From positions 9,189,933-9,253,932 of the forward strand of contig CM067349.1 in the NCBI GenBank assembly GCA_034190875.2: 64,000 bases of DNA, given 5' to 3'. Every line of letters starts with the position of its first letter. Within the stretch, counting starts at the first letter, position 1. The stretch is from Urechis unicinctus (Eukaryota > Annelida > Polychaeta > Xenopneusta > Urechidae). Positions 16,281 through 22,200 of this stretch are shown here, piece after piece. Both the position numbers and the translations under genes were made by a program. Under the pieces are notes generated by a model. That model saw nothing but the letters and a program-made list of their open reading frames with translations, searched no databases and was not told where the DNA came from.

Positions 16281-19200
16281 CTATTTGGACTTTTTGGCTG
16301 GTTTACGGCTGGATTTGAAGTTGTTGTTGCCATTGATCAGCTTGGTGGAGGCAGGAAGTTTGCCATTGGCTATTATAGGCTCATCCTCACTATTGGTTTC
16401 TGGCTCAGTATCGCTGCGACTGTCTTTGGTCTGAAGCATGGCAAAGATATAGTGAGAACACTGAATTATGACACCAGGATTTGACACAGTACAGGCAAAA
16501 AAGACAATTTAAATCAACAATTTGTATATATTCTTCATTTATAAAAATTTGTTATATTTATTATATTACACCACCGGGAATGTTATTACAGCAAAATGTA
16601 TATCACAGTTAAGACCAAGTTCCAAAAACAGCTGTGAATATGAATACAAAATAGGTCTTCAAAAGCTGTGGGGTTGTGTTAGAAGATAAGTGCAGATTAT
16701 ACAAGAGTTAATCAAAATGAAGCTAAGATTGAGACATAGGATTCAGGAACAATAGTCTCATTACAAAATAAACATTTTGAATCTATGTATTCCTCATTTA
16801 GAGAAGAGCAGTGTGTGACAGTGTAGTGCATGAATAGGGAGCTGCAATTTGTCTCACTCAAATGTTCCATATTTTACTTAACTTTATACAATGTATAGTT
16901 GTTTGTGGTAATATATATATATATATATATATGTTTATACATAATCATAACCAAATTGGGGCTACAAATCTACAAGAGAACACCAATGACCAAACATCAA
17001 AAAGTCATCCATCGTAAAAAGGCGATGAATTACAAAAGCAAACAAGGATGGGATGAAGACACCTGTTTCCAGCATTAGGCAGTTCATCGTGTGTAGAGTA
17101 CAGTCCATATGAGAAAAGGTCATCGGATGACCTCACTCACCAAGATCATGCCTCTACAAGCTTACATGTGTAATCATTCATATACGAACCCAATATCAAC
17201 ATTGCATTCACTTCCAGTGCTTTGTTCAGTTGTGCGAAGCCACTGAAGAGAATCAATACTAAAGAGTTGAGTCAAACAAACTATAGTAGTGACTATTGCT
17301 TGAAAAGCAGCCCATGATCAACACGATAAAGAACGGAACACGGCTTCAATAACACACAACCTCACATCAGGTCATTGTTTGGTTAGTTGGTTAGTCTTGA
17401 AAATGCCAAATGAACCATCATGATTTCTGCATCCTAAACCTTATCAAGCAATGCTTCCCTATACAGGATTCTAAGTATTTCTCATTGTAATCTAATGAAT
17501 TAATTTAAGTTGATTAAGATGATGACCCAGAAAGAAACGCAGCCGGCACCTGTTTTTCACTATATACTGTAGCTGTCAGCCAATGATTGTCTAGATTCAG
17601 ACAACCCACATCACACAATGACTAGGCTACTTGTGGGTCTCACCATGTCCCTTCTCTTAACACGATCATGGTTAGTCAAAATGGGCTACTTTAAAAGCAC
17701 ACGTTATAGAGATAGCCTCAGGACACACACTATAAGAGTCTACCATGCAGCTTGCAGTGTTTGTGCATTGTACAGAATATTGACGTGCATGGAATTGAAA
17801 TACACAGTGGTTAGTAACATATTCAGGTTAGTAATTGCTCTGAAAAAGGGAATCTTCATTAGTTTTCGTAGTGAGCTATCAAAAATTAAATAAAAACTGC
17901 CCGAGTATTGAGTTGTGCAGGCTTGAGGAGTTAACACTAGCCAGACCAGGAGATCCCTTTAACTTTTTAGAAACTTGTCACAAATTGTAAGCCTTATTGT
18001 GTTCTCAGATATCAGTACAAAATAAAATCAAAAACAGACCTGACATTTATAAAATAAAAGATAAAAACTGATCCCAGTGCAGTGTTAGGCTAGGAAAATG
18101 GGTTGGCAAGCATAGGTGGGGGTTAGTGGGAGAACGTTCATCATCACCTGTCCCTTGAAGACAAACTGATGGACCATGCCCAGAATCATATAAAACCAGA
18201 TGATGTGTAGAATCTGGAGTACTAGCAGGAGGGTATTGAACATGTAATAGACTGGAAAATGCTCCAGCATTGTGTAGGCTTCAACCATGGTCGAATTCAG
18301 CACCCTGCAGATGCACAACAGAAATACAGAAACTAGGGTTACTGCTAAATGCTAGTAGCATAAAAGGAAAGCATCGGCACTGAACAGTCTCCTCTGGCCA
18401 TTGGTGCCAGTGCTGGTGTTAGCATATTAAGAGGCCAAGACTTGAGCCGGTGCTTTAACATTGAATGTTATCCCATCGAGGCCATTGAGGATAGCCTGAT
18501 GTCTTGACTCCAACAGGGGCTGCAAGTCACAGTCAGTCCGATGAAAAATAACAATGCATCTGTTAAAGAAAAAGCCAATTAGACTACAGATATTATCTCA
18601 TATGTTCTTGAACCTTTAAAATGGGCATTCTGAAGAACACATTGGGATGCTTCAATGGTGCTATCTAGAACAAACGCATCACTCAGTATTTTGAAGCCTG
18701 AACCATGCAAAGCATACTAGTCTGCCTTGCAACAACCATGCAAAGCAGCATTACGAAGCAGAAAGATAACGAACTAATTTAATTCATTATAGCCATTAAA
18801 AATTGTCCCCAATATCATCTGTTCAATTTCCCAATACAAGATTCTTGGTAGACATTTGGGCAAAGGTCACCCAGGAACCTGAACCATCCGTCAGGAAAAC
18901 CCGTTTCCGATGGATGCACACTACCAGCATTTGGCATTCATTTCGGTAAAGACAAAAACCTATAGTTAAATGATTTAAACCCCCTGGTAAATTTAATCAC
19001 AGCCATAACCATTTAAAAAACACTGTTAGAATGACATAAGTATTTGTACCATAGTTTTTATATTATGCATTGAGTGTACACACCAGGCACATGTATATAT
19101 GCTACAACCACTGTGCCACATCCTAACCTTTTAGCCTCACAATTGAGTTCACACTTTCCATCAGCAGTAGCAATTATGACAGTGGCAGATGAACTCCTCG

Positions 19201-22200
19201 AAACAAAAGGATGTCAAACTTAATCTGCAAACCACAATGTCATCAGATAGGTGCACTGCTATACCATAAGTACTTGTTCACCATAATGAAGTTCTCAATG
19301 AGACAACCTATTTCAATACTACTGCTGCATGGTTTCCGAACCTAAAATTATACATCAGTTGATACAGTATTTTATTTCATTATTTTCGCATCCAGCTCAA
19401 AGTACATTATATCAGGTAGTATCTTCAGCCAACTTTTTAAATTCAAGCCCATAGGTAATAATCATGATAATCAAAATATGTCTTGAATTTAACCTTGACT
19501 GAACCTGCTGATTTACAACGAGGCATGTATAGGAGACAAAGTTTAAGCAGCCTTTGTCAGACAAGTTTAACTTGTTTTACTACAAATGCTATCCACTGAT
19601 CGTGGTCTTCCATTGGTTGCAACCCCTTCTATCATGCACTCATGCAGAGACCATCACATAGCTTTGACCATCACTGATAACAGGCAAGTTCAAACTGCAA
19701 CCCCCAGCAGGCAATAAACAACCCAAAAAATGAGAATTTGGAGAAGCCTTGATTAAAGATAATCCATCAACCATGGCAGTATCATTTACCATTTTTATGC
19801 CATTTCCTCGGTTAAAAATTGATTGCAGACCTGCATTTGCAAATTAAATCTGGTGGACAGTGGCAAATGTCATATTGTACATACAGGTGCCTACTAGTTA
19901 CAGCTGTAATGGTTTAACCACAACAAAATAGGTACATTTGTTTGTTAAAGAGGACACAATTAACTGCACCTGGCTAATACTTTTTACCCACATAGCTTCA
20001 GCAAAGGTTTTCTTACAACACCAATAAATGAGGTATTTCTCCCATTGAGTAAATAAACATCCATTCAAACATATAAGTTTGGTGGCATGCAATGAATGGT
20101 ATGCTTCAACAAGGATCAGGCATTTCCAAATAAGGCCATGATTACAAAGCCTGAAGCTGGACATTCTGAAGGAATATCTGATCGTTATCATCAACTTGAA
20201 TGAACTTCAACATGACAAAATGAACATAGCAGCATATCAAATTATCTTATAAACAGAGCGGTAAATACTCAACCTAGTTATCTAATCAGTCAACATGCAA
20301 TCTTTACTGAGTGATATAACAATAATAACATGGTGATGTTATAGAAATGTGTATCTGCTCCATGTCACCTGTCAGCACATGCAAGGCCTACAAAGGCTGT
20401 TGGCAGGGAAACTGCAATTCATGTTCAATGGAAATGAAAATCAATCCATCCTGCAGCAAGCAGTCATTGCTTTCAAAAAGACCTACTTCCTGTCAGTGAG
20501 TCTCTTGTGGAGTTATTATGCCATATAGATACATTTCAGTTTTGTGCAATTGTTATTTTGTTCCCATTAAAGTCTGAAATTATTCAAACTCCTGAGTTGA
20601 TACTGGCAACACCAACTTATGGATATCATATTGAAAATAGACTTCACAAAAGTTTAAGAAAATATGCATGTTTTCATTTGTTGATGTCTAATTTAGTCAA
20701 TCACGTGTCATATTTGGTCTATTCCTCACGTCTCATCAACAAACATAAGCAACAGGACTTAACAAAAAGCCAGAAATAACGCTGCGGTCACTGATTGCAC
20801 TCAACTGTAAGGATATCATTTCCAGAAGGGAATCCGTCAATGATATAAAAATTTCACAGGCAAATTACGACCTTTTTCTATATGAAATGTACCTCGAGTG
20901 ATCGAACTGATGCAGCTTGGAGAGATTGCTGAGAAGCAGGACGGTAGATGATGAGGAACATTGAAACACAACACCTCATGGTCCAGACAATGTGGATTCA
21001 CAAAGAATTAAGGCAATTAAATAGTAAGTAATTAACAGGATGCTGATCTAACAAGTAAATTTCAATTGGAAGCTTATAAGGTAATATGGAATAAGTAGTA
21101 GGAATTAGAACTAGAATCTAGTTCTAAGCTGAAATAGCTGACAAACCCATGCCACCAGGCGCAGGGGTTATTACATAAACCACCTGGTCAGGGGTTATTA
21201 CATAAACCACCTGGCCAGGGGTTATTACATAAACCACCTGGCCATTCCCTCAACCATTTACTTAAACAACCAACCAGGAAAGCATTATTCATATTCATGG
21301 ATTTCAAAAACGGATCTTTAAAATCCGGAATCATTGAAATATTTCTTTTTTTTCCAAAAAATCCCAAATTTTAGTTGGTAAAGTTATGCAGAAGAAGTAA
21401 ATAGATTGATTTGTTTTCCTACAGGGCATGTAGATCATACATAATACAGTTAAATGTGAAACCAGATGACTTTTGAAATCCAAGAAATGAAACAGCCTAT
21501 ATGAAAGGTCAGTGGAGGTAATTGGTGTGCCCATATACTTGTACTATAGGGGCACCTGGAAGTAGCCTACCTTCCCTTGCAACACCAACACATCATAGAG
21601 CATACGAGATATGACGAAGGTCCATATGACATGCAGGATTTGTAGGAGAATTAGGAGCCCATGAAAGACATAAGCGATGGGAGGTAGTCCCAATAAGGAA
21701 GGGCCTTCAATTATAGCACTGTAGATAATCCTGAAAAGAGCCATTACACACAAATGTGATAACATGCTAATAAACAGGAGATGAATCAGCCAACACAGCC
21801 CAGAGACGCGACTGGTTACTGCCACCAACAACGCTATCCATCATGTACTTTGTGGCCATATAACACACTGGATACTAAAATGCTACGTACTTTCTCAATA
21901 GATCATGATTGTCGTGTCAAGTTATTCACACCACCGTTTACATGTCTTGGATAAAGAATTCATCAACACTACACAATTTGGCAGATATTGTGAGTCAAAG
22001 CAACCAACATATTGAAATAGTCCAAGTGCCCATATTGGCATGAAATGAGATTTTTTTTAAATTTGTATAAAATATGGATCAATAAATGTCTACCAAGAAC
22101 AGGCATATGGCAGTGATCAGCTGCTCTTGGTAATTAAAGACTACCTGAGCAGGTGCTCTTGGTAATTAAGGACTACCTGAGCAGGTGTTTTGCATCAACC

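Follow-up and report, generated by a model that had tools for sequence, protein, structure and literature searches.

Can one ceramide synthase gene supply enzymes with different acyl-chain preferences by choosing between two versions of a single exon? Ceramide chain length alters membrane and signaling behavior, and six enzymes account for it in mammals. The question is raised by a 64,000-nucleotide stretch of the 1.19-Gb genome of the annelid Urechis unicinctus (the window: GCA_034190875.2, contig CM067349.1, positions 9,189,933 to 9,253,932), in which a complete ceramide synthase gene of the CerS2-6 type lies on the minus strand (window positions 31483 to 16281, with the ATG at 31483 and the stop at 16281). 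This gene has nine exon positions, or ten exons when both versions of the eighth, 8a and 8b, are counted. We consider it probable that this exon was duplicated long ago, that each productive mRNA takes exactly one copy, and that the two resulting isoforms prefer different acyl-CoAs. The duplicated exon would supply what closes and lines the acyl tunnel: the end of transmembrane helix 6 (TM6), the TM6-TM7 loop, and TM7. The two enzymes would thus have the N terminus, Hox-like domain, catalytic histidines, and DxRSDxE tail in common and would diverge in tunnel cap and wall, and the ratio of 8a to 8b splicing would set the chain-length output of ceramide synthesis.

Exons 8a (21571 to 21730; 160 nucleotides) and 8b (18148 to 18304; 157 nucleotides), both on the minus strand, were placed by splice sites, reading frame, and homology. 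A preliminary description of the locus had presented them as two diverged exons with proper splice sites, the same phases, and aligned products, and the coordinates, GT-AG sites, phases, and protein match all agree with that account. Each exon begins within a tryptophan codon split after two bases (TG before the intron, G after it) and ends at a codon boundary, and their peptides match by BLASTP with an E value of 3e-11 (39% identity over 49 amino acids). The local alignment score between them is 97, compared with a best score of 40 against 8b among control peptides (632 open segments of at least 30 residues from positions 32001 to 64000). When the exon 8 peptides of the 188 sequences described below were used as queries, 185 matched 8a and 187 matched 8b at E < 1e-3; no third copy of the exon was found in the window, where the best match elsewhere had an E value of 0.004. 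Duplicates of the eight constant exons were also absent from the window, with nothing better than E = 0.018 beyond the exons themselves.

The seven upstream exons and the last exon form a single open frame with either choice, giving proteins of 390 (8a) and 389 (8b) amino acids. Both alternative exons have lengths of 1 modulo 3, so that skipping both or joining both creates a premature stop. Exon 7 (22890 to 22996, minus strand, ending 3' in the split tryptophan codon and placed by splice sites and joined frame), when joined directly to the last coding exon (16281 to 16430, minus strand, placed by splice sites and joined reading frame), runs into a stop straight after YPF, and 8a joined to 8b shifts the frame and reaches a stop after seven codons of 8b. 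Because the frame breaks in both cases, productive mRNA favors one exon or the other, and exclusivity could be achieved without any need of splice-site chemistry. Taken with the isoform pairs of other phyla, this anatomy makes mutual exclusivity of 8a and 8b a well-supported prediction, and we infer that the two are used exclusively in U. unicinctus.

We assembled 186 proteins from two homology searches (the best 120 of 662 matches and the best 120 of 1001) of a protein database clustered at 90%, which makes the pair counts lower bounds. With both window forms added, we searched all 17,578 pairs among the resulting 188 rows for proteins at least 93% identical except in one 40-residue stretch of less than 50% identity. 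Only 10 of the 17,578 pairs showed such a localized difference, and in five of them it fell at residues 286 to 341. One of these five is the window's own 8a/8b pair; the others are Saccostrea X1/X2, Pacific oyster P0034/P0019, Lingula X1/X3, and Lineus X4/X2, four public same-gene isoform pairs that span oysters, a brachiopod (Lingula), and a ribbon worm (Lineus), three other phyla in all, every pair being present in the first homology search, which predated knowledge of any pair. Among the remaining five, one differs at residues 60 to 99 (two mammals) and four differ at the C terminus (one bird model in all four).

The four public pairs are 99.7 to 100% identical upstream, over 284 to 290 residues, and 26 to 40% identical in the exon. 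In the alignments, divergence begins at the window's exon boundary and stops there too, save in Lingula X3; the oyster pair has one more differing residue close to its end. The Lineus residue preceding the boundary is tryptophan in one isoform and cysteine in the other, which would fit a TG split from the third codon base, as in the window. In scallops, both exon types are seen across two species, in Pecten X1 and Argopecten X2. Given the clustering at 90% and the best-120 lists, absence of pairs elsewhere means little. As a separate observation, the numbering of the Lineus isoforms (P0042 and P0078) as X4 and X2, together with the strong divergence of the X2 exon, may point to more than two alternatives in this gene.

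What does the exchanged exon build? In human CerS6, according to passages of PMC11919693, the acyl chain is held on the catalytic histidine in a tunnel whose lining comes from TM4, TM5, and TM7, and the TM6-TM7 loop seals this tunnel at its endoplasmic reticulum end and is linked by the authors to chain-length preference. An 11-residue loop region is reported to set acyl-chain specificity, as cited in passages of PMC11919693 and PMC8789539; the latter describes the region as a putative cytosolic loop, whereas in the CerS6 structure the TM6-TM7 loop is luminal, and we took its sidedness from the structure.

As structural stand-ins for the window isoforms we used AlphaFold models of both Saccostrea isoforms (mean predicted local distance difference test scores of 88.7 and 88.9), which have their main helices in common. 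The X2 model, the one of the two compared with the Protein Data Bank (PDB), matched CerS6 best (E = 2.7e-24, 47 to 48% identity). The exon starts at residue 285, inside TM6 (259 to 297 and 259 to 296 in the two models), and covers the turn and TM7 (301 to 333). Judged from these models of a relative, exon 8 probably encodes the TM6 end, the TM6-TM7 loop, and TM7, and so would supply the tunnel cap and wall. Each exon had earlier been assigned the loop and the last helix; that assignment stands, and the relative's models add the last turns of TM6. The loops had also been called sharply different, proline rich and neutral in 8a and acidic in 8b. That overstates a modest difference, with three prolines and one acidic residue in the first 24 residues of 8a and one proline and two acidic residues in those of 8b. 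Isoforms that differ in tunnel cap and wall would be expected to differ in acyl-CoA preference. From the position of the exon in the tunnel, we infer that the choice between 8a and 8b may change acyl-chain preference, and we predict at least two acyl-chain specificities from this one gene.

Both copies bear the marks of long retention. Among 52 aligned codons, 8a and 8b differ at the first, second, and third positions in 28, 11, and 37 codons, respectively, and therefore both exons have long been kept as protein. The 19 identical residues of the 52 are encoded by different codons in 15 cases. The NG86 method gave a nonsynonymous divergence (dN) of 0.53 and an undefined synonymous divergence (dS), which we took as saturated, and YN00 returned no value. 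This substitution pattern indicates that the duplication is old and that 8a and 8b have both stayed protein coding.

Several observations weigh against our interpretation. The public isoform pairs are database gene models; Lingula X3 has a different C terminus as well, and its exon resembles that of a close paralogue that is 92% identical; and Lineus X2 aligns poorly. Comparison of orthologous genes for the same duplicated exon, which the preliminary description had proposed, yielded isoform pairs in oysters, Lingula, and Lineus but no 8a-like exon in other annelids, with 0 of 12 candidates at E ≤ 10 when the protein database was searched with the 8a region. Among the 13 relatives that fall with annelids in the tree, 12 score higher with 8b than with 8a, the exception being Owenia. 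Lastly, we mapped five pairs onto CerS6, every isoform pair but that of Lineus (four in all) plus the scallop pair drawn from two species, with region borders that we set ourselves. The residues kept per pair are 3 to 4 of 12 in the loop, 1 to 4 of 7 at the TM6 end, and 9 to 15 of 32 to 33 in TM7. The loop is thus only slightly less conserved than TM7, and because the TM6 end and TM7 change besides the loop, the effect could be on stability, dimerization, or regulation.

The alternative that survives best concerns origin and is compatible with exclusive use of the two exons: the duplication may be old but lineage specific, sharing no descent with the pairs of other phyla, so that such pairs would have been invented more than once. 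In the exon tree, bivalve sequences form a type 1 (oysters, Pinctada, Pecten, and heterodont and unionid clams; nine rows, support of 99/93) and a type 2 (oysters and Argopecten; three rows, support of 95/86). In the constant-part tree, rows of both types group as bivalves (98), and the two scallops group together (100). Since each exon type spans oysters and scallops while the two scallops stay together in the constant part, the bivalve exon seems to have been duplicated before oysters and scallops diverged. Exon 8b groups weakly with annelid exons, and 8a falls elsewhere (68/89). Approximately unbiased (AU) tests on the 52 exon columns rejected none of six groupings, namely 8a with 8b (P = 0.196), 8a with bivalve type 1 (P = 0.245), 8a with type 2 (P = 0.409), 8a with annelids (P = 0.262), type 1 with type 2 (P = 0.383), and Lingula X1 with X3 (P = 0.074); an alignment of this length is too short to settle one versus several origins.

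Repeated invention draws on the single clade of 8a and 8b, which stands under the AU test, and on the exclusive exons of mrp-1, which according to passages of PMC7434440 reportedly arose independently in several phyla. Against it, a branch that sets 8a and 8b together apart from all other rows is present in 0% of 200 bootstrap trees of the same 52 columns, and the two share only the 19 residues noted above, with dS undefined. We regard separate origins as quite possible, though short of likely. We propose, tentatively, that the CerS2-6 gene of lophotrochozoans (annelids, molluscs, brachiopods, and nemerteans) inherited the exclusive use of its acyl-tunnel exons from a common ancestor and would then yield several chain-length-specific synthases per gene as a counterpart to the vertebrate CERS2-6 family. 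In a separate observation, P0014, whose constant part lies closest to that of the window gene, has an exon 8 peptide that joins those of Lingula X3 and the X3 paralogue on long branches (97/92), a hint at further exon 8 types.

A second alternative keeps the exclusive exons but has them tune something other than chain length, such as activity, stability, dimerization, handling of CoA or the long-chain base, or inhibition. All of TM7 and the TM6 end are swapped beyond the loop, as the counts above show, and the position of human Lys328, which in CerS6 contacts an inhibitor group that appears to mimic CoA (passages of PMC11919693), is occupied by Asp in 8a and by Gln in 8b. The swapped part is nevertheless the part tied to chain length in the literature, and tunnel wall and cap change together; we find this alternative unlikely. 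That 8a is a duplicate in decay or in rare use, with the working enzyme coming from 8b alone, is very improbable, because although 8b outscores 8a against the human CerS6 segment (local scores of 98 and 62), lies nearer the Pfam TLC profile, and is favored by the annelid comparisons above, 8a has an open frame, canonical sites, the right phase, and coding-type substitution after synonymous saturation, and the same exon is alternatively used in the isoforms of other phyla.

The reading of 8a and 8b as exclusive tunnel exons presupposes a genuine ceramide synthase gene. Its other exons, all on the minus strand, are exon 1 with the ATG (31299 to 31483; joined reading frame and tblastn with annelid ceramide synthases), exon 2 (27563 to 27695; tblastn with annelid ceramide synthases, splice sites, and joined reading frame), exon 3, which holds most of the Hox-like domain (24434 to 24540; tblastn, joined frame, and Pfam search), exons 4 (24216 to 24273) and 5 (24044 to 24094), both placed by splice sites and joined reading frame, and exon 6, with the Lag1p motif and its two histidines (23585 to 23806; CerS6 match, joined frame, and alignment). 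A partial assembly of the 8b form matched human CerS6 (PDB 8qz6) at E = 2.9e-85, and both isoforms contain the TLC domain PF03798 (162.6 bits for the 8a form and 172.4 bits for the 8b form; cutoff, 24.6). Exon 6 matched CerS6 at E = 3.1e-18, and the adjacent histidines of its Lag1p motif, H217 and H218, are invariant across an 18-row alignment. The last exon encodes DSRSDTE, which fits the C-terminal DxRSDxE motif named in passages of PMC8789539. The Hox-like domain (PF00046) scored 21.1 to 21.2 bits, just below the cutoff of 22.9, and aligns with the homeobox part of CerS6 and CerS5. In the constant-part tree, the gene groups with Capitella, Owenia, Helobdella, and further proteins (sets of 14 and 15 rows; SH-like approximate likelihood ratio test support of 96 and 95), a placement that makes an annelid host most likely. 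The CerS6 match, TLC domain, Lag1p motif, and DxRSDxE tail indicate that the gene encodes a CerS2-6-type ceramide synthase, a predicted N-acyltransferase.

Animal genes divide into CerS1-like and CerS2-6-like groups (passages of PMC6315813). The window gene has the same domain order, TLC fold, His-His motif, and DxRSDxE tail as human CerS6 (PDB 8qz6 and 8qz7) and animal CerS2-6; human diversity comes from separate genes, whereas the window holds one gene with two forms of the tunnel exon. A genome search with the 8b-form protein returned 12 places: the 10 exons of this gene, a second ceramide synthase gene (C9:38447769, E = 1.1e-5; locus L003, G000:C9:38447751), and one weak match (C14, E = 0.41). 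From its frames we take the second gene to be CERS1-like, and the earlier suggestion of one gene in place of six is too strong because the genome also holds this one. A TLC-domain exon (38.1 bits) at G000:C9:80072787 (L002) lies outside the list from this protein search and perhaps belongs to another TLC family.

Three candidate mechanisms for the choice of exon were set aside. The intron separating 8a from 8b (18305 to 21570, minus strand) contains seven sense-strand copies of TGCATG, presumably an Rbfox-type site, against 2.55 expected, a count reached in 15 of 1,000 shuffles. This excess is weak and post hoc: the motif was picked after the sequence had been seen, ranks only 45th among hexamers by excess in this intron, and shows no enrichment across the window as a whole (58 copies against 63.24 expected), and we did not use it as evidence. 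As for complementary pairing between introns, the 25 longest of 120 inverted repeats all lie in or at a TA microsatellite in the intron before 8a. Incompatibility of U2 and U12 sites is unneeded because the sites used are all GT-AG. The microsatellite, a perfect (TA)48 at 22758 to 22853, lies in the intron preceding 8a, which is itself flanked by two short minisatellites, at 21152 to 21244 and 22114 to 22187, with units of 27 bp and 32 bp. Upstream, a head-to-head gene at 31960 on the plus strand, which we take to be ribosomal protein L27-like, starts 477 bp from the ceramide synthase start codon; a shared promoter is possible. Elsewhere in the window, a single open frame of 791 codons from stop to stop (47018 to 49393, minus strand) is apparently an intronless gene.

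In titles, abstract openings, and passages, with most subscription journals outside coverage, we found no published ceramide synthase exon swap of the 8a/8b kind. One study of oyster ceramide genes names a single ceramide synthase expressed sequence tag, and a term search of its accessible text returned no mention of splicing (PMC3517309). The exon 8 swap in the Saccostrea, Pacific oyster, Lingula, and Lineus isoforms is described here as new, its nearest analogues being coq-2 and ACSL6/ACSL1. According to passages of PMC7434440, the exclusive exons 6a and 6e of coq-2, found in helminths, annelids, and molluscs, switch substrate choice; this case likewise joins a lipid-pathway enzyme, exclusive exons, and overlapping phyla but involves another enzyme, and its switch was tested by exon deletion in Caenorhabditis elegans, whereas that of the ceramide synthase is predicted. 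The exclusive gate-domain exons of ACSL6 and ACSL1 likewise swap a part that bounds a fatty acid channel, in an acyl-CoA synthetase of another enzyme family and through a short motif with a Phe/Tyr change (passages of PMC1543647). Skipping of human CERS2 exon 8, too, is ceramide synthase splicing that alters ceramide levels by chain length, but it removes another exon, a catalytic Lag1p cassette (residues 205 to 247), in tumors and causes loss of function without a swap (passages of PMC7876150).

If chain length is set in several phyla through the exchange of a single exon, natural isoform pairs that are otherwise near-identical could serve to test what the tunnel cap does, and public RNA sequencing data could reveal when tissues switch between them. 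The gene would then offer a clear case of control of lipid composition at the splicing step, alongside coq-2 and ACSL6, and the species that carry the swap may control the chain length of their ceramides through RNA splicing instead of keeping many genes.

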